44,050 bases of DNA, from assembly GCA_938005475.1 (NCBI GenBank), contig CALLNY010000012.1:1-44050 (forward strand), written 5' to 3'. Under the pieces are notes generated by a model that saw nothing but the letters and a program-made list of their open reading frames with translations, was not told the DNA's origin and ran no database searches. Source of the stretch: an uncultured Bacteroidia bacterium. Its GTDB lineage: Bacteria; Bacteroidota; Bacteroidia; J057; CALLMJ01. Each line of letters starts with the position of its first letter. Position 1 is the stretch's first letter. The position numbers and the translations under genes were made by a program. Below, piece after piece: positions 10,639-20,148 of this stretch.

Positions 10639-11478
10639 CTAAAACTCCCAGAGATAATGCTCGAATTCTACCATTTGATTGTTACGCTTTTCAGATAACT
10701 TTAGGTCTAATTCCTCTCCAGAAAGTTCGGTTAAAACTGATTTAAACAAACGTAATTCTAAAATCTCTCGCATAGAACGATATTCAGCATCGTTATTTCT
10801 ATTTTTCCATTGAGTATCATCTAAAGTATCCATGACATCCTTATAGGAAAAACAAACTTGAGTCTCGTATCTCCCTAACTGCTCATCATAATCAATCAGA
10901 CAGATATACTGAATATCATAATACATATCAGATTTATTTTTATCAAAGATACGATCTTCAATAATACCTATAAATTTCTCATAACGTAATAAATCTGAAT
11001 TCTGAGAAGATTTACCTTTTCCACCCATGGTATCATCTTTACCTTCTCCATCGGTTGTAGCTTGTTCTCCGCCACCACCTTCCTCCATGTCTTCGCCTTC
11101 ATCCTCAAATTCTTCCTCTTCATCTCCTCCACCTGATATATCTCCACCGACAGCGCTTGACCCACCCTGCCCCTGCATGATTTTTTGAAAATCATTATAG
11201 GTTACAGGTGTTTGCAAACTACCATATTTATAACCAATATACTTACCATCTTTATATCCATTTATTAATGCTCTAACTATTCCATCTGTTTCACCATACT
11301 TGCCTTTTGTGTAAATTTTTGACTCAGATGCAATAAGTGGTGAATTTAACTTTTCTTCTAAATCAATTCTCTCAAATACTTTTTTCCTCCAAAAATGATC
11401 TTCAACCCTAGGAGGAAATTGTGCATATAATTGATTTATACCCAAATAAACAACAACTAAAAAAAATACTTTTCTCAT
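10639..11478 (-). CDS. gldN: GldN/PorN, T9SS periplasmic ring protein
   Basis: Periplasmic component that joins lipoprotein GldK/PorK in the outer-membrane-associated ring of the type IX secretion machine. From the ATG at 11478 ([13 protein letters not shown]) the protein has 279 residues with a signal peptide ending near YAQ. Family features are [17 protein letters not shown], the [21 protein letters not shown] block and [18 protein letters not shown]. Between the two conserved halves (about residues 108-160) sits a low-complexity insert of Gly, Glu and Asp ([20 protein letters not shown]), likely disordered. It is last in the porP-gldKLMN locus and is followed at once by a strong terminator. 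Confidence 0.95.
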
Positions 11479-11499
11479 ATTCATAAAATTAATTCAAAA

Positions 11500-13203
11500 C
11501 TATTTAACTGTTACACGTTTTATTCTTTCTTGTCTATACTTTTGTCCTTCTAAAACACCTACCTCAGTATTAATACAAGTAACCCTTTTTATAGCCTCTA
11601 TATCTATAAAAATAATACCAGACTGTGGGGGAGCCTTCATGTAATTCCCAAGGTTTACATTTACTTTAGCCTTGGAGTCCACTTTATCGGATGCAGGTAT
11701 AGTCGTAATTTCTTCCACACCTCCAGCCAAAGTCTGTCTTGATATCTTAACATTTACTAATTTATATCTACAATCTTTAGGATGTGACTTTTCAAACTCC
11801 TTATCAGGATCTACAGCTACCTCAAATGGAGTTCTAAAAGAGATTGGCGTTACACCATCCCATCTTTTATTACCTGATACAATTACAATATTAGGATCAG
11901 GTGGAGATTTTACCACAAAAGACTGATCACCTAATTTTATAGTTTGACCACTTAAATTAGCAGAAACAGATACAACAGCTTTGTCACCAGAAGGAATTAA
12001 TGTAAACTTATACTTTGAACCTGGTTTTTGGTTAGCTTTGCCAGGATTTAATCCTAATATTACATCAAAGTTAGCACCACAACCAGGGTCTACCTCAATA
12101 TCTGTACAACAGTCACGGTATAAACTTAAACCTTGGTCTGATTTTATTGAAAACGAAGGTTTCAATACTTTGAATTTCTTCGTAAGTGTCATATTAGAAA
12201 AAGATCCATCTGCTTTAGGCACTTTTGCACTTACAGTATATGATTGAAAACCTTCCGATTTACCAGGTGGAATTACTGATGCATTGGCAATAACCTTAAT
12301 GGTTGCAGTACCTCCTGGGTTATTTTTCAAACCAGGCCCACTAAATTGAGGTTTGATATCTTTAGACATAACTGTTACATAAACTTCAGACTCAAAATTT
12401 GTACCCGCTAAAACTGCATTAGCAATAGGAGCATCTTTCAAAACTAATGAGTCAATTTTGAATGGAACCTGACCTACTAACGTTTCTAAATGGGCTAACA
12501 AATCTGTTTGTACATTCAGTACATTATTTTTAAGCATTTGAAGAATAGCAACATTCGCTATTATCGGTGCACCATGAAAAATAGTATATTCCCAAGTTTT
12601 TCCCAACAGCTCTCTATTCTTAGGATTTTTTTTGTCAATAGTGGGATCATCTTTGGGATCCAATGCTATGTATTGTAATTTCATTTTTGATTTATGCTTG
12701 GATAACCAATCATTTGCCCAATCAATAAAATTATTAAGGTTATCTCTCATCTCTTTTGCTCTTCCCCCTCCACGACCAGCATTAGCAGTTTCACCACCAT
12801 TTTTCCCTATCATCCAGAAACGATAGTTTTTCTCAGTTTCATTTAAATTTTTTATCTTTCCCGTTTCTGGGTCCTTCTCTCCAATAACATACAGACTGTC
12901 TATTAGAGATTCAAGAAAATCTAGTTGTTCTTTAGTTTTTTGAGCAATAATTTCCGCCTCTGCAATGTACTTCTCGTTCTTTCTATTACCTTGCTTTATT
13001 TCATCTTCAATAAGCTTCTTAATATCATCCGCGTGATCTAAATTTTTTGCTGCGATTTTTGCGGCAGAAGTTTTTAATGAGTCTCCAATAGTCTCAAAAC
13101 TATGCAATATCTCAGAACTTACTTGAAGAGCTAACAAGGCAGTAAGAACAAGATACATCATGTTAATCATTTTCTGCCTTGGGGTTAACTTACCACTTGC
13201 CAT
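11500..13203 (-). CDS. gldM: GldM/PorM, T9SS motor protein
   Basis: Inner-membrane protein that pairs with GldL to form the proton-driven motor of T9SS and gliding, with its long periplasmic part reaching the GldK/N ring. The 567-residue sequence has the expected short cytoplasmic start (MASGKLTPRQK), one transmembrane helix (MINMMYLVLTALLALQVSSE) and a helical region followed by beta-rich repeat domains; the CCTDIEVDPGCGA segment carries paired cysteines. It lies 29 bases after gldL and 21 before the gldN start codon used here, in a single operon. Confidence 0.97.
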   Translation of the reverse strand: MASGKLTPRQKMINMMYLVLTALLALQVSSEILHSFETIGDSLKTSAAKIAAKNLDHADDIKKLIEDEIKQGNRKNEKYIAEAEIIAQKTKEQLDFLESLIDSLYVIGEKDPETGKIKNLNETEKNYRFWMIGKNGGETANAGRGGGRAKEMRDNLNNFIDWANDWLSKHKSKMKLQYIALDPKDDPTIDKKNPKNRELLGKTWEYTIFHGAPIIANVAILQMLKNNVLNVQTDLLAHLETLVGQVPFKIDSLVLKDAPIANAVLAGTNFESEVYVTVMSKDIKPQFSGPGLKNNPGGTATIKVIANASVIPPGKSEGFQSYTVSAKVPKADGSFSNMTLTKKFKVLKPSFSIKSDQGLSLYRDCCTDIEVDPGCGANFDVILGLNPGKANQKPGSKYKFTLIPSGDKAVVSVSANLSGQTIKLGDQSFVVKSPPDPNIVIVSGNKRWDGVTPISFRTPFEVAVDPDKEFEKSHPKDCRYKLVNVKISRQTLAGGVEEITTIPASDKVDSKAKVNVNLGNYMKAPPQSGIIFIDIEAIKRVTCINTEVGVLEGQKYRQERIKRVTVK

Positions 13204-13232
13204 TTTTCTTTCTGATAATTATAAATTTTAAA

Positions 13233-14126
13233 CTAAATATCTTTAGATGCAGAAGCCATCGCAGTAAGCATACTGCCATAAATCCTATTTAATCTTGACA
13301 TATTCTGTGTTAATGATGAAACTTCCTGCTTCAATGCTTCAGCCTCTTTTGATGTTTCTACAATGTTATTCATAACCGCAGTTAAATTACCATAATATTC
13401 CTTGATACTCTTTGAATGAGCTGATGCATCTTTAAATTCAGCTTCATAAATTGCATTTAAACTAGATAGATTTTGAGTAAGAGTATTAACCTGCTCTTGA
13501 TAGGCTTTCATACTTTCAACAGATCCTCCAATTACACTATTTACCGAATTGGTTAGCTTAGTAGCGGCATCAAAAGCAATAGAATAACTTTTATTCATTT
13601 CATCGATTTTTTCAGAAGCTGATTTTAGTCTATCTGAATAATCTTTTGATGCTTTGGCTACATCTGCTATCTCACTTAAATTGGATACATTCGAGCTTAG
13701 TCCTTTTATAGAAAGTGATAAAGACTCGAAAAGGTCAGGAGTAAAGGACTTATTTATAGCTTCCATACTCTTATTTAGACTCTCAACAGGTTGAGTATTA
13801 ATTGAAGTAACTTTCACTACTTGATTGTCTAAATTTAATTCCTCATTACTTGCTTCCTCACTCGCTAAAGCTGGATAAACCTTTTCCCACTCATAATGTA
13901 CGTCCAAATCTGGTATAGGTTCAAAAGCTGAAACAAAGAATATAAGCGCTTCTGTACCCATGCCAACAATTAACATTTCGTTTGCAAAAGGCCAGTGCAA
14001 AATTTTAAATAATGCACCTAAAATTACAATAGATGCCCCTAAACCGTACAGCATTGCTGTACCCTTTCTAAATCCATCGGAATAGAAAAATGATGATGCT
14101 TTCTTTTTTTCTACTAATACTGACAT
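13233..14126 (-). CDS. gldL: GldL/PorL, T9SS motor protein
   Basis: Inner-membrane partner of GldM in the T9SS motor. Two transmembrane helices lie near residues 22-68 (MLYGLGASIVILGALFKI and MLIVGMGTEALIFFVSAF), separated by the conserved LHWPFAN turn. The cytoplasmic C-terminus (about 110-297) is rich in heptads (TNSVNSVIGGSVESMKAYQ, QNLSSLNAIYEAE) and probably coiled coil. At 297 residues it is of usual to slightly long size. The conserved glutamate in GTEALIFF, implicated in proton transfer in this family, is present. It lies between gldK and gldM. Confidence 0.96.
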   Translation of the reverse strand: MSVLVEKKKASSFFYSDGFRKGTAMLYGLGASIVILGALFKILHWPFANEMLIVGMGTEALIFFVSAFEPIPDLDVHYEWEKVYPALASEEASNEELNLDNQVVKVTSINTQPVESLNKSMEAINKSFTPDLFESLSLSIKGLSSNVSNLSEIADVAKASKDYSDRLKSASEKIDEMNKSYSIAFDAATKLTNSVNSVIGGSVESMKAYQEQVNTLTQNLSSLNAIYEAEFKDASAHSKSIKEYYGNLTAVMNNIVETSKEAEALKQEVSSLTQNMSRLNRIYGSMLTAMASASKDI

Positions 14127-14191
14127 ATTAAGTTACTTTTTATTTTTAATTTAGCTAATAATGAAATAATCTAACAACTATTTTTCGATTT

Positions 14192-15298
14192 TTATAACTT
14201 CGCTGCACCAGATCTACCTAACAAGGTTACAACACATCTAAATCCTATGAAAGATTTGGTAGTATCAGCGTACTCGTAAGTTCTTGTACCCACAGACAGG
14301 AAATATGCTACATCTTTCCATGAACCTCCACGAATTACTCTTCTCCTCTCTAAATGTTTAGGGTCTCTGTAAATAGGGTTCAAGTCGTGTGCATACGAAT
14401 AACCTGTTTCTTCAAAGTCATCTTCGCACCATTCTGCAACATTACCAGGCATACAATATAATCCGTAATCATTAGGCCAGTATGATTTAATTGGACATGT
14501 ATACTCAAAATTATCAGCTATATAATCACCTCTACCTGGCTTAAAGTTTGCTAAAAAACAACCTTTAGAATTTCTGATATAAGGACCTTCCCATGGATAT
14601 ATTTTGTGTTCAAATCCTCCTCTTGCAGCGTATTCCCATTCAGCCTCAGTAGGCAATCTAAATCTTGGTAATTTGGGACGTTTTTGAGAATCTCTATAAT
14701 TATTATAACGAATAGTTCTCCAAATACAGAACGCTTGAGCGCCATACCAATTCACACCCACAACAGGATAATTATCAAAAGCAGGATGCCAATAATAATT
14801 TTCGGTTAAAGGTTCATTGTAAGAATACGTAAAATCTCTAATCCATACTAAAGTATCAGGATAAATCAATTTTTGAAGATCTTGAGCAGAAACAGTATAG
14901 TCATAATACTGTTTTAAAAACTTAATCATAGAATCTTCAACCGTCAAACCATTACCAGCAGGATCGTTTACATTTTCAGATGCCGCCTTACCCGTCAACA
15001 TATAATCAACGAATTGTCTATATTCGTTATTTGAAATCTCAGTATCGTCCATATAGAAAGCACTTATGGTTATTTGTCTATTATGGGCAATTTGTGAACT
15101 ATTCACATCTTGGTCATTTTGACCCATGTGAAAACTTCCTGGTGGAATCAATACCATTCCATAAGGATTGGGTTGGTCCCACTTTGGGCGATTCGTTACA
15201 CCTGTTAACTCTCCTCCTTTTCCAGTTTTGTCACCAAACATACCACAACCGGATAAAACATAGGAAATCAACGCAAAAGCTACTAATATTCTCTTCAT
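14192..15298 (-). CDS. gldK: GldK/PorK, T9SS outer-membrane lipoprotein ring component
   Basis: Outer-membrane-anchored lipoprotein that builds the large T9SS ring with GldN. The signal peptide ends in LSGC (Cys18, lipidation site). The rest is an FGE/sulfatase-modifying-factor-like domain: GMVLIPPGSFHMGQND, FYMDDTEISNNEYRQF, PVVGVNWYGAQAFCIWR, LPTEAEWEYAARGG, MPGNVAEWCEDDF and RRVIRGGSWKD. In this family the fold is structural, not catalytic. At 368 residues it is complete. Its promoter is probably at 15343-15375; it is preceded by porP and leads gldL, gldM and gldN. Confidence 0.97.
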   Translation of the reverse strand: MKRILVAFALISYVLSGCGMFGDKTGKGGELTGVTNRPKWDQPNPYGMVLIPPGSFHMGQNDQDVNSSQIAHNRQITISAFYMDDTEISNNEYRQFVDYMLTGKAASENVNDPAGNGLTVEDSMIKFLKQYYDYTVSAQDLQKLIYPDTLVWIRDFTYSYNEPLTENYYWHPAFDNYPVVGVNWYGAQAFCIWRTIRYNNYRDSQKRPKLPRFRLPTEAEWEYAARGGFEHKIYPWEGPYIRNSKGCFLANFKPGRGDYIADNFEYTCPIKSYWPNDYGLYCMPGNVAEWCEDDFEETGYSYAHDLNPIYRDPKHLERRRVIRGGSWKDVAYFLSVGTRTYEYADTTKSFIGFRCVVTLLGRSGAAKL

Positions 15299-15342
15299 AT
15301 CTTCTGAAAGAATTTACTTATTATGATTGTTAAAAATTTTTA

Positions 15343-15375
15343 CAAATATAGAAAGCAATTTAATACAAACTACAA
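15343..15375 (-). promoter_or_regulatory. Promoter of gldKLMN
   Basis: Minus-strand TATATTTG (15343-15350) with TTG 22 nt upstream (15373-15375), or TTTG 15 nt upstream (15366-15369). It lies between porP and gldK, so gldKLMN can be transcribed apart from porP, with a leader of roughly 40 nt. Confidence 0.55.
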
Positions 15376-15406
15376 TTATTTTTATTTTTTTTTGTAAGTC
15401 CCTGAA

Positions 15407-16348
15407 TTAACGGAATCTACGTTTATCACGAGTACCTAAATCTGGTGGATAATACTTCACAATCGTAGGGAACGTATAGGTTAGAACTAATTCATGAGAA
15501 CCACTTGTCCCTGCCCCCAAGCCCGAAATCGTGTAGTCATAAGAATATGCAGTAAACAAATTCTCTGTAACATGAAAACCTACTATTCCAATGAACGAAT
15601 CTCTTAATCTATAAGAAAGACCCAATACCATGGGCTTAATGTCTACATTAGCATTAAAATCTAACTGCATTTGGTTTTTAGTCATCTTTCCGTAGAAACT
15701 TGGAGTTAAACTTACTCTATCATTAAAATCAAACCGATAGCCTGTCATCAAACCGATTCCTCTACTCACTTTAGAATTTTTAGTCTGAGTAAAAGCATCT
15801 AATTTAGGTTCTAACAAGTGAGCTCCTGCCACACCAATATAAAATTTATCATCTGGAAGCGTAAAATAGATTCCCGTAGATAAATCCCCTTTTGTTAAAG
15901 AAATATTTTGATTCAATAAAGTCAAATCTCCTGCCATTTCAGGCCTCCAGTTTGTACCATCAAGAGATTTCTGGAGAATTCCACCTTCTAGCCCTAAATG
16001 AAGAGACGCTCCATTAGAACCCACTGGCAACTTAAAAGCATAAGCAAATTTTGCCGCAACAGTTGATAATGGACCTATTTTATCTGCCATAACATAACCA
16101 CCAATACCTCCTCTTAATAGTTGTATCGGAGAACTGGCGCTGATTGTAAATGTGTTAGGATGCCCATCTATACCGACCCATTGCGACCTCCCAGCGGCTG
16201 TTATACTAAATGGATTAGAACCCGCATACGCTGGATTTAAAACCTGTCTATTAAACATATACATGCTAAACTGTGGATCCTGTTGTGAATATGACAGTTT
16301 AGGCACAATAGACAAGAGCATAATTACTCGTATTACGATTTTTTTCAT
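15407..16348 (-). CDS. porP: PorP/SprF-family T9SS outer-membrane protein
   Basis: A 313-residue outer-membrane beta-barrel of the PorP/SprF family. A signal peptide (MKKIVIRVIMLLSIVPKLSYS) is followed by the family hallmark QQDPQFSMYMFNRQVLNPAYAGS and alternating beta strands. Its place directly before gldK matches the porP-porK-porL-porM-porN order known from Porphyromonas, so it is likely the core paralogue of the secretion locus, not a cargo-specific SprF copy. In that role PorP helps attach the GldK/N ring to the outer membrane or the translocon. Confidence 0.93.
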   Translation of the reverse strand: MKKIVIRVIMLLSIVPKLSYSQQDPQFSMYMFNRQVLNPAYAGSNPFSITAAGRSQWVGIDGHPNTFTISASSPIQLLRGGIGGYVMADKIGPLSTVAAKFAYAFKLPVGSNGASLHLGLEGGILQKSLDGTNWRPEMAGDLTLLNQNISLTKGDLSTGIYFTLPDDKFYIGVAGAHLLEPKLDAFTQTKNSKVSRGIGLMTGYRFDFNDRVSLTPSFYGKMTKNQMQLDFNANVDIKPMVLGLSYRLRDSFIGIVGFHVTENLFTAYSYDYTISGLGAGTSGSHELVLTYTFPTIVKYYPPDLGTRDKRRFR

Positions 16349-16432: not shown

Positions 16433-17182
16433 TTATTTCTCACACTGCTGTAGATAGCTCTCTATTGCCATTGCCATAGACGGTAAATTCGGCTGTGGAG
16501 CCTCTATATCCACTCTTAAACCTTTTTCTTTTGCCGCCTGGCAAGTAGTCGGTCCAAAAACAGCTATTCTTGTATCTGCTTGTTGAAAATCAGGAAAATT
16601 TTTGAATAAAGATTCGATTGCAGAAGGTGAAAAAAAAGTAATCAAATCATAATGCTTACCTTTAATATCGGATAAATCAGAATAAACCGTTTTATAAACT
16701 ATTGCCTCTTTTATATGATAACCGTTTTCATGCATAAATTTAGTAAGCTCCGTCCTTGCCATATCACTACATGGAAATATATATTTATCTTTTGTATGTT
16801 TCTTCACTAACTCAATTAAATCTTCTGCAGTTTTAGTTCCTACAAACAATTTTCTTTTCCTTATCACTATGTATTTTTGTAAATATTGCGCCGTAGTATT
16901 GGATATACAAAAATATTTCATATCCGGTGGTAGCTCCACTCTCAACTCTTTGCATAAACGAAAATAATTATCCACAGCATGCTTACTCGTCAGAATAACA
17001 GCTGTAAAATCTAACGGATGTATATTTTGCTTCCTAAACTCCGAAACACTCAATCCCTCAATATCAATAAAATTTTTATACTCAATTTTTACCTTAAATT
17101 TCTTTTCAATGTTTTTATAAGGTGAATTTTCATCTTGAGGCGCTGACTGTGTAATCAATATATGTTTAACTTTTGGATACAT
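16433..17182 (-). CDS. hemD: Uroporphyrinogen-III synthase
   Basis: Closes and inverts ring D of hydroxymethylbilane to uroporphyrinogen III in heme and corrinoid synthesis. The sequence is divergent, as is normal for HemD, but shows the two-lobed layout: ILITQSAPQDENSPY at the start, FTAVILTSKHAVDNYF in lobe one, and DLITFFSPSAIESLFKNFP plus IAVFGPTTCQAAKEKG in lobe two. I use the ATG at 17182 (MYPKVKHIL, 249 residues); an upstream in-frame start at 17206 would add 8 residues and enlarge the overlap with hemC. The overlap with hemC (17166-17182) shows co-translation, and the pathway partners confirm the call. Confidence 0.93.
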   Translation of the reverse strand: MYPKVKHILITQSAPQDENSPYKNIEKKFKVKIEYKNFIDIEGLSVSEFRKQNIHPLDFTAVILTSKHAVDNYFRLCKELRVELPPDMKYFCISNTTAQYLQKYIVIRKRKLFVGTKTAEDLIELVKKHTKDKYIFPCSDMARTELTKFMHENGYHIKEAIVYKTVYSDLSDIKGKHYDLITFFSPSAIESLFKNFPDFQQADTRIAVFGPTTCQAAKEKGLRVDIEAPQPNLPSMAMAIESYLQQCEK

Positions 17183-18080
17183 AGATAAGTTCTTTCCCTC
17201 CTTCATTTAATACTTTTTTCGCTAAATTTATTCCTAAATTATTCGAATCTTGAACTTCACTTTTTAATTCATACTGAATAATACGCTGACCATCTATTGA
17301 TGCTATCCCTGCTAACAAACTCATTTCATTCATAAAAATTCTTGCATAACCAAAAACAGGTAATTGACACCCCCCCTGAATAGTCTTTAAATAAGACCTT
17401 TCACATGATATCTCCAAGAAAGTTTGTTCATGATTAATTTGCTTTACTACTTTATCTGTTTCTTTATCTTCCTTCCTTATCATTACAGCCACTGCACCCT
17501 GACCCACCGCCGGAACAAAAACCTCTGTACATAGTCTTTGCCTAATATATTTTTCTAAACCCATTCTCTTAATCCCTGCATAGGCTAATATTAAAGCATC
17601 ATAATCGCCACTCTCTAACTTTGCTATTCGAGTATCTAAATTACCACGAATATCTTTTATCGTATGTTGTGGAAAATAACGTTTTAAAAAGGCAACCCTA
17701 CGAACCGATGACGTCCCAATTATAAAACACTTAGACTGATTCTCTAAATGAACCGTTTCCTCTAAAGATAATAAAACATCATGTGGAGACTCTCTCTTTA
17801 ACACCGCAGCAATCATTAAGTTGGGATTTAACTCTCCTGGAATATCCTTACAACTATGAACCGCAACATCTATTTTATTTTCTAATAAAGCCTCATCTAG
17901 TGCCTTGGTGAAAATTCCTTGTCCCCCTAACTGATGTAATGGAAACTGCGTTTGTTGATCTCCATAAGTTTGAATAATTTCTAACTCAGTATCATAACCT
18001 TTCAACTCTAATAAATTTTTGACGTTATTGGCTTGCCATAAAGCTAATTTAGACCCCCTTGTCCCTATCCTTATTTTCAT
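17166..18080 (-). CDS. hemC: Hydroxymethylbilane synthase (porphobilinogen deaminase)
   Basis: Cytosolic enzyme that condenses four porphobilinogen molecules. Canonical features: IRIGTRGSKLALWQA at the N-terminus, HSCKDIPGEL, RRVAFLKRYFP, IRGNLDTRIAKLESG, AYAGIKRM and VPAVGQGAVAV. The dipyrromethane cofactor cysteine is Cys238 in QGGCQLPVF. I start at the ATG at 18080 (304 residues); the longer frame from 18122 adds 14 non-conserved residues and would overlap the upstream membrane-protein gene. It lies 10 bases after that gene and overlaps hemD, so the three probably share a transcript. Confidence 0.96.
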   Translation of the reverse strand: MKIRIGTRGSKLALWQANNVKNLLELKGYDTELEIIQTYGDQQTQFPLHQLGGQGIFTKALDEALLENKIDVAVHSCKDIPGELNPNLMIAAVLKRESPHDVLLSLEETVHLENQSKCFIIGTSSVRRVAFLKRYFPQHTIKDIRGNLDTRIAKLESGDYDALILAYAGIKRMGLEKYIRQRLCTEVFVPAVGQGAVAVMIRKEDKETDKVVKQINHEQTFLEISCERSYLKTIQGGCQLPVFGYARIFMNEMSLLAGIASIDGQRIIQYELKSEVQDSNNLGINLAKKVLNEGGKELIYVSKS

Positions 18081-18090
18081 GCAATTAGAA

Positions 18091-19635
18091 TTAGATGAGT
18101 AACAACCATGGTAGTATTTCAAAGCCGCAAATATAAAAAAAAATTACAGAAAATGGAATTTTAAAATTCATATTATAAACAATTATCAGATAATATTGTT
18201 TTTTTAAAATCATCAGTAAGTAGCAACCTATAAATAACCAAAACCATAAAGGCTCCCCTATTAGTACAGTTGCTAATAAACCTACATAAGCCAAAAAAAG
18301 AAATGGCATCTCCCCATAAATTTCAAGAATTAAATTCTTATTCCGATAGTCCTTTAAATCGTATATCCATTCCGCAAACTGCCAAATCATAACTTTGATA
18401 ACATTGAACCCCACCAAAAATACCATCACACCGCCTAAACTCCATACTATAGAATCCCCATACTCCCTTGCAAAGCTGTAAATAGAATTATTCTTGTGCC
18501 AAAAATTTAAAACTTTCAAATTATCCGTTGAGTATAATTGATTGATAAACAAACTAAATATCAGAGATTTTATAAAAATCCTAACCCAATAAAAATATTT
18601 TAATGAAATAGAATTTAGCAATTGAAAATCATGAATTAAAAGTTGTATCTCCCTTGTAGACGGTAGAACAGTCCATAAATTTTGATAATTAGTTACGTTC
18701 GCTAACCGATATATTAACAATAATATCAAAACCGATATCCCCAATATGACAATCAAAGGTTTATATAACTCTGATGCTACTTTAAATAATTGATTATTTC
18801 CAATATATATATACTTACCCCAAAAATCACTTCTTTCATTATCCTCTTTAAACCAAAAAGGAAATATATTCGTTTCTGAATGGCTTCTATAAATCGCTAC
18901 TTGCTTTGCATGCTCATAATGATCTACTAAATGAATATTATATTGATTCAAAAGTTCTCTAATTCGTGGAGATATATAATAAGGAATATAAATCGCCCTA
19001 ACACCATAATTTCTCATAAATTCTAGATCTTTAATTAACATGCTCTCCGAAATATTATACTTAAATTCTCTCGAAAAAGGAAAATAAATTAAAACAGAAT
19101 CGGATTTGATATAAGCATTTTGTATAATATTTTGGGGTTTATCCCTCTGAAGTAAAAAAACGGATTTATGAATTCCAATAAAAGGTGGTGTCCACCATTC
19201 ATCTGTACGATTCTCGTATTTTTTTAAACTTACTTCTATCCAGTTCCATTGAATATTAAACAGTTCTGCTGGTATAGGAATTACTATCTCCTCGAAAGGT
19301 CTCTCATAAATCAATAATAGTTTACCGTTCAAATAGATTTCAGCTTCCCAACTAATTCCTCCAAAGTATAAATATAACGTATCTTTTATCCTTTCTTTAA
19401 GAAAAAATTCTTTCCTTAAAGTTAATATATTTGCCTCATCCTCCACAAATGGTACTCTATACACCTCATCAGAAGAAGTTCTCCATACACCATTTAAATT
19501 TTGGAATGCTTTTAAATTTCTCGTTTTCCATGTGGGTTTAAAAATTAAATCAGGAGTAAACTGAATTTGCTTCCCAATTAAACAAAAATTAAACCATAGA
19601 AAAAAAAACAATAAAATTACAATTTTAAAAAACAT
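18091..19635 (-). CDS. Membrane protein with glycosidase-2-like N-terminal part and DUF4271-like C-terminal part
   Basis: A 514-residue protein of unknown function. From the ATG at 19635 it has a signal or anchor (FKIVILLFFFLWFNF), then a beta-rich region (about 45-165) with FQNLNGVWR, YLYFGGISWEAEIYLNGK and NWIEVSLKKYENR, which resembles the sugar-binding jelly roll of glycoside hydrolase family 2. Residues 203-242 (DLEFMRNYGVRAIYI ... HLVDHYEH) mimic the first strands of the GH2 barrel, but the catalytic remainder is absent. About six transmembrane segments follow from residue 292. DUF4271 membrane proteins are often encoded beside hemD in Bacteroidota, so I suspect this half is DUF4271-like; that is inference. 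The start codon at 19635 has a TAATTTTG promoter-like box (19650-19657) just upstream. The longer frame to 19704 would run into ispF. Confidence 0.75.
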   Translation of the reverse strand: MFFKIVILLFFFLWFNFCLIGKQIQFTPDLIFKPTWKTRNLKAFQNLNGVWRTSSDEVYRVPFVEDEANILTLRKEFFLKERIKDTLYLYFGGISWEAEIYLNGKLLLIYERPFEEIVIPIPAELFNIQWNWIEVSLKKYENRTDEWWTPPFIGIHKSVFLLQRDKPQNIIQNAYIKSDSVLIYFPFSREFKYNISESMLIKDLEFMRNYGVRAIYIPYYISPRIRELLNQYNIHLVDHYEHAKQVAIYRSHSETNIFPFWFKEDNERSDFWGKYIYIGNNQLFKVASELYKPLIVILGISVLILLLIYRLANVTNYQNLWTVLPSTREIQLLIHDFQLLNSISLKYFYWVRIFIKSLIFSLFINQLYSTDNLKVLNFWHKNNSIYSFAREYGDSIVWSLGGVMVFLVGFNVIKVMIWQFAEWIYDLKDYRNKNLILEIYGEMPFLFLAYVGLLATVLIGEPLWFWLFIGCYLLMILKKQYYLIIVYNMNFKIPFSVIFFYICGFEILPWLLLI

Positions 19636-19671: not shown

Positions 19672-20148
19672 ATGATACGAATTGGAATGGGCTACGATGT
19701 ACATAGCTTTACTACCAATAAACCTTTATTTTTAGGGGGAGTACAAATTCCTTACAAGAAAGGATTAAAAGGGCATTCTGATGCCGATGTCCTACTACAT
19801 GCTATTTGTGATGCTTTACTCGGTGCCGCCGCTTTACGCGATATTGGATTCCACTTCTCTAACCAAGATTTACAATGGAAAAATATCTCCTCCTTAATCT
19901 TACTCCAAAAAACATGGGACTTAATACAACAAAAAGGTTATCAATTAGGAAATATAGATGCTACTATCATCGCTGAAGAACCCAAAATTAACCCCCATAT
20001 CCCTGCTATGCTAATAGAAATCTCCAAAGTTTTACAATGTGAACCAGAACAAATCTCTATTAAAGCTACTACCAACGAAAAAATGGGATTTGTCGGTAGA
20101 AAAGAAGGTATAGCCGCTCTCGCCGTCGCCTTAATACACAAAAATTAA
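19672..20148 (+). CDS. ispF: 2-C-methyl-D-erythritol 2,4-cyclodiphosphate synthase
   Basis: Non-mevalonate isoprenoid pathway enzyme that cyclises CDP-methylerythritol phosphate with release of CMP. At 158 residues it is the normal trimer-forming size. Zinc ligands are Asp9 and His11 (GMGYDVH) and His43 (DVLLHAICDALLGA); GHSDAD and DIGFHF are conserved, as are KATTNEKMGFVGRKEG and EGIAALAVALI at the end. The start ATG is clear. It is divergent from the membrane protein gene at 19635, with 36 bases between them, and reads toward the lipoprotein gene 54 bases downstream. Confidence 0.97.
   Translation: MIRIGMGYDVHSFTTNKPLFLGGVQIPYKKGLKGHSDADVLLHAICDALLGAAALRDIGFHFSNQDLQWKNISSLILLQKTWDLIQQKGYQLGNIDATIIAEEPKINPHIPAMLIEISKVLQCEPEQISIKATTNEKMGFVGRKEGIAALAVALIHKN

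Follow-up and report, generated by a model that had tools for sequence, protein, structure and literature searches.

A glycoside hydrolase of family 2 (GH2) combines a jelly roll (PF22666/PF02837) with a complete TIM barrel (PF02836) that bears an acid/base and a nucleophile glutamate. DUF4271 (PF14093) is a six-helix membrane domain present in 87 of the 99 Bacteroidia genomes sampled, and we found no description in the searchable literature of its function or of a fusion of this kind; by name, DUF4271 was found only in sea-anemone and blow-fly studies. Literature joining glycoside hydrolase, pseudoenzyme, transmembrane and Bacteroidetes was not found either. The window, i.e., the whole stretch of 44,050 nucleotides from an uncultured Bacteroidia bacterium that was analysed, contains a gene in which elements of both families occur in one chain. 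The best explanation overall, to which we assign a probability of about 0.65, is that the product of this gene belongs to a phylum-wide family and sits in the inner membrane, with an inherited, eroded head and a conserved core. Its parts are known folds; their combination, its phylum-wide spread and the differential loss of the head appear to be unreported.

Build of the fusion protein

The frame runs on the minus strand from an ATG at 19635 to a stop codon at 18091-18093 and encodes 514 residues beginning MFFKIV. The following features were assigned to it.

18091..19635, minus strand: the whole gene, 514 aa, with signal peptide, GH2-derived head and six-TM DUF4271 core
19573..19635, minus strand: hydrophobic N-terminal signal sequence MFFKIVILLFFFLWFNFCLIG, covering residues 1 to about 21 and recognised from the letters themselves; the model has a helix at 2-17
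19141..19518, minus strand: GH2-type N-terminal jelly roll, residues 40-165 (hhalign; PF22666; model pLDDT mostly 80-92; Foldseek)
18886..19104, minus strand: first beta-alpha-beta elements of a GH2 TIM barrel, residues 178-250, catalytic part absent (HMMER, hhalign)
18094..18774, minus strand: six-TM domain, divergent DUF4271, residues 288-514 (hhalign; model pLDDT 80, pTM 0.78)

We consider it highly probable that the family and architecture are those of a signal peptide, a GH2 remnant and a six-TM DUF4271 core. The homologue in a congener begins at the same residue, and identity along the entire length is 65%. The same architecture occurs in 20 of the 22 genomes of the window's order, including 18/18 of those at least 90% complete, and three genomes of f46, a different family within the class, also have this head joined to DUF4271. 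Because the architecture recurs on independent public MAG contigs (L052-L059), the fusion in the window goes beyond chance and is no assembly artefact. Relatives of the protein were not found in viral contigs, nor was a second copy of the head found elsewhere in the window's genome. In one deep member of the order (L014, G002:C5:174233), whose frame has 672 aa, the jelly-roll head is kept but the head continues differently in its second half.

The sequence-only reading had proposed a sugar-binding jelly-roll-like region followed by the first barrel elements of a GH2 enzyme without catalytic residues, and both parts of this proposal were borne out. The Pfam domain Glyco_hydro_2_N2 (PF22666) matches the window protein weakly (E 0.005) and a homologue above the cut-off (L012, E 8.7e-8); in the latter, PF22666 and DUF4271 are both matched in one chain. 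The family profile of the jelly roll aligned with that of 21 GH2-type proteins in hhalign at a probability of 98.9 (E 3.5e-17). In the predicted structure of the window protein (mean pLDDT 73), the jelly roll is modelled mostly at 80-92, and Foldseek searches of the model against the PDB retrieved GH2 beta-glucuronidases (best E 2.8e-8). The approximately 100 residues after the jelly roll correspond collinearly to the opening strand-helix-strand unit of the GH2 barrel; the alignment skips the Ig-like domain of GH2s. HMMER matched this barrel start weakly, though at a consistent position in about nine GH2s; in hhalign, the barrel start scored a probability of 57 (E 1e-4) against the ordinary GH2 profile and 94.6 (E 6.9e-8) against full-length membrane-bound pseudo-GH2s. 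The window family lacks the remainder of the barrel, and both catalytic residues with it; the membrane helices come next. Thus, the jelly roll is present and the complete TIM barrel with its acid/base and nucleophile glutamates is not, and the window protein is, as judged from its sequence, not a GH2 enzyme. It is read here as an inner-membrane protein whose outer half is a catalytically dead remnant of a sugar-cutting enzyme. Identity to the congener is 70% in the head and 62% in the membrane part; since the head is conserved at least as well as the core, it is probably used where it is present.

About six helices and a DUF4271-type membrane part had likewise been anticipated, in agreement with our results for the second half of the protein. 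Six long helices are predicted in the model (pLDDT 80, pTM 0.78), and the membrane profile of 18 homologues aligned with that of 23 genuine DUF4271 proteins over 204 columns (hhalign probability 98.6, E 1.3e-15). PF14093 is matched directly by 15 of the 19 family members (best E 2.1e-12), and neither the window protein nor anything else in its genome matched it at E up to 1. We therefore file the window protein, from its sequence, as a remote homologue of DUF4271 and not as a formal Pfam member. As expected, the head gave no match to DUF4271. The Yip1 domain (PF04893) was matched neither by the membrane part of the window protein nor by DUF4271 proteins, and Foldseek found no similar solved fold in the PDB for the six-TM core (best E 2.4).

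Neighbouring genes and the linked HEM4 lineage

Downstream of the fusion gene and on the same strand lie hemC, then HEM4, then the type IX secretion genes porP-gldK-gldL-gldM-gldN; ispF is divergent on the other side.

19672..20148, plus strand: ispF, divergent, 36 bp from the fusion gene (TIGR00151)
17166..18080, minus strand: hemC (porphobilinogen deaminase), between the fusion gene and HEM4 (PF01379, E 2.6e-76)
16433..17206, minus strand: HEM4 (hemD-like) of the DUF4271-linked lineage (PF02602, E 3.5e-37; tree)
10639..16348, minus strand: type IX secretion core porP-gldK-gldL-gldM-gldN with short gaps (Pfam; gene order shared with relatives)

The pairing with HEM4 is nearly invariant in the class sample. 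Of 90 DUF4271 places, fused forms included, 89 have HEM4 downstream, 87 of them less than about 700 bases from the domain, and the single DUF4271 without a HEM4 neighbour sits at a contig edge. This agrees with the statement in the sequence-only reading that DUF4271 genes often sit by hemD. Its identification of the neighbours as hemC and hemD stands in part: hemC and a HEM4 gene are there, and the HEM4 tree shows that the latter is not of the usual heme-pathway HemD lineage. DUF4271-linked HEM4s, the window's included, form their own starred clade (99), outside which fall the HEM4 domains that are fused to hemC or stand alone elsewhere. Among the loci viewed for its position (the window, L005, L010 and L016-L018), hemC separates the fusion gene from HEM4 in only part of the order, and HEM4 follows straight after the fusion gene in the other members.

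The linked HEM4 is unlikely to be confined to heme synthesis throughout the class. In 20 near-complete genomes the DUF4271-HEM4 pair is kept and hemC is not detectable, and the linked HEM4 of such genomes must have another job than heme synthesis. The window's genome (G000) contains a single HEM4 match; since hemC is present there and another HEM4 is absent, the linked HEM4 may also serve heme synthesis in this organism. The separate clade and its persistence without hemC suggest a non-heme role for many proteins annotated as 'uroporphyrinogen-III synthase'. GldL is encoded 3-5 kb away in 20 of the 90 DUF4271 places, and the DUF4271-HEM4 pair also occurs in genomes without detectable GldL, so a role in secretion only is unlikely.

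Relatives in other classes and the fate of the head

Across 395 genomes of the phylum, the best match of the head profile outside the family (E 2.6e-14) was no ordinary enzyme. It is a protein of 845 aa with a signal sequence, a GH2 jelly roll, Ig-like and barrel regions and six membrane helices. A GH2-like protein with six TM helices was matched in 113 of the 119 genomes of another class, a count in which some matches are partial and the weaker extra matches are ordinary GH2s. With the membrane profile of this pseudo-GH2 protein, 117 of the 395 genomes gave a match, usually a single one and usually in an ORF of 820-930 aa. The acid/base glutamate is present in 20/20 ordinary GH2s and in only 4 of 38 membrane-bound family heads; the nucleophile column of the pseudo-GH2 heads is less surely aligned than the acid/base column. 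Yip1 was matched by 14 of 20 pseudo-GH2 membrane parts (best E 9.3e-7), and a short headless relative also scored above the Yip1 cut-off. Among the 30 best loci, smc adjoins the pseudo-GH2 gene in 28 and tpiA in 19. The pseudo-GH2 + Yip1-like protein of about 870 aa (L091:3933-6467, L094-L173) lies beside smc, often with tpiA on the far side. Searches with tblastn found no hemD, hemC, porP, gld genes or ispF near the other-class relatives.

The membrane cores of the two groups are likely related, as far as profile comparison goes, though this is not proven. DUF4271 aligned with the other-class membrane part over 191 columns (hhalign probability 91.0, E 1.1e-6), the window-family membrane part did so at probabilities of 82-88 (first alignment 82.2, E 1e-5), and DUF4271 and fusion cores together reached 94.7 (E 6e-8) against a deeper other-class alignment. 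The barrel-only class gave no direct match to the window-family membrane part. For the heads, a single alignment spans jelly roll and barrel start between the window family and the pseudo-GH2s (E 4e-15). Together, it is strongly indicated that the window family and the ~870-aa proteins with pseudo-GH2 head and Yip1-like six-helix part are one family.

Four states of the head were distinguished. The full head with the core is found in most non-Bacteroidia genomes with a match. In families f89 and f78 a barrel without jelly roll precedes the core in proteins of 530-640 aa, and this head matches the full head at E 6.5e-27. Jelly roll, barrel start and core characterize the window's order and f46. 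The core occurs alone in the DUF4271 proteins of most Bacteroidia and in family f96, where it is still beside smc. The barrel-only form of f89 (L154, L156, L157, L158) lies directly after ftsQ-ftsA-ftsZ. A signal peptide and a periplasmic stretch of ~120 aa were observed in four other Bacteroidia DUF4271 proteins (L174, L177, L178, L179). This mini-head was considered as an intermediate, on the strength of an F-[IL]-[DN]-[NG]-[QK]-L motif like the jelly-roll hairpin in the right register, and was rejected, as the hhalign probability was 4.8 and not significant.

The direction of change was inferred by parsimony. We regard it as probable that the head was inherited and worn down differently by lineage (whole, barrel only, jelly roll with barrel start, none) and not acquired. 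Since related cores in other classes almost universally carry a full GH2-like head, the wearing-down of an inherited head is a more parsimonious account than a fresh fusion. The sequence-only reading had assumed that a DUF4271 gene acquired its head, which is probably backwards in view of the near-universal full heads in the other class, even though the trees leave room for it. In the head tree, all fused Bacteroidia heads form one clade (99) and ordinary GH2s another (89-93), and an AU test does not reject a topology that unites the two (p 0.54). In the membrane tree, which is unresolved at the base, the fused forms are one clade and are not placed at the base of DUF4271.

Two other histories have to be weighed against inheritance and erosion. 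The resemblance of DUF4271 and Yip1-like cores might reflect convergence of hydrophobic helices, which would make the two GH2-headed families unrelated fusions. Profiles of membrane segments readily produce spurious matches, the direct links seen by HMMER are weak (DUF4271 is matched by 2 of 20 pseudo-GH2 membrane parts, best E 0.0028), and the other-class membrane profile matched no Bacteroidia genome at E 0.001. However, the collinear alignments of 190-205 columns are absent from the controls (reversed alignments reached E 0.16 at best, and 80 block shuffles did no better than E 0.0015), and the GH2 heads agree and sit at the same chain end, so that we judge convergence improbable. A new acquisition is somewhat easier to entertain and still unlikely: the ancestor of the order and f46 would have joined a DUF4271 protein to the front end of an ordinary GH2 and thereby gained a receptor that senses a glycan or another ligand. 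Such an event would fit the lack of a GH2 head in most Bacteroidia DUF4271 proteins, the single clade of fused forms and the outcome of the AU test. Two events within a single phylum would, however, be needed to place this type of head at the matching end of related cores, and the barrel start is closer to the membrane-bound pseudo-GH2s than to ordinary GH2s (E 6.9e-8 versus 1e-4). As for sensing, no adjoining gene for a kinase or anti-sigma factor partner was seen in the window.

Possible role and comparison with known proteins

An active membrane-bound glycosidase, or a transporter presenting sugars to its membrane part, is very improbable. Constraint on the GH2 sugar-binding domain speaks in its favour, but the window family lacks the barrel strands bearing both catalytic residues, the acid/base residue is gone in 34 of 38 full-length heads, and most DUF4271 proteins dispense with the head. 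Under inheritance and erosion, the signal peptide would export the head, and the first helix would enter the membrane from the periplasmic side; the hydrophobic N-terminus of the window protein points to a periplasmic head. Having lost sugar cleavage, the head may offer a partner protein or an envelope glycan a place to dock in the periplasm, a mechanism that we put forward only tentatively. The six-helix core would be the conserved working part, since the core alone is kept everywhere. It may cooperate with HEM4, a cytoplasmic product of the shared gene cluster, whether in assembling the envelope or as part of a related membrane complex.

A broader interpretation is conceivable, though we do not favour it over narrower ones. 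In it, an ancient six-TM protein of the Yip1-like type, bearing a dead GH2 head, might serve all of the phylum as a core module of the envelope. It would be tied by lineage to chromosome segregation (smc), to division (ftsZ) or to loci for type IX secretion; its partner in Bacteroidia would be a HEM4 protein that does more than heme synthesis, and the window gene would be a half-eroded intermediate. If the link between DUF4271 and the pseudo-enzymes is true, two anonymous genes become one phylum-wide family with a head-loss series, and the HEM4 partner, the type IX secretion cluster, smc and ftsZ provide a testable context. It also suggests that some annotations in the phylum as 'glycoside hydrolase family 2' or 'uroporphyrinogen-III synthase' may name proteins with other jobs.

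Compared with known systems, the window protein shares with GH2 the jelly roll and the first barrel elements in GH2 order, and its head has GH2 beta-glucuronidases as the closest solved folds. It differs from GH2 in having neither the Ig-like domain nor the remaining barrel nor the catalytic glutamate pair, and in its attached membrane core. With DUF4271 it has in common the six-TM core, a C-terminal YLC-LEILP-type motif and the place upstream of HEM4, whereas ordinary DUF4271 members are without a GH2 head and the window sequence has diverged beyond the reach of the Pfam model. The Yip1 domain has matches among the membrane parts of relatives from other classes and in the headless relative; it has no direct match to the window protein or DUF4271 and is linked to them only through this intermediate family. 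The ~870-aa pseudo-GH2 + six-TM proteins (e.g., L091) share with the window protein a signal sequence, a GH2 head and a six-TM core in the same order, but they have a complete GH2 fold and a Yip1-like core and are encoded next to smc, often also tpiA, instead of HEM4.
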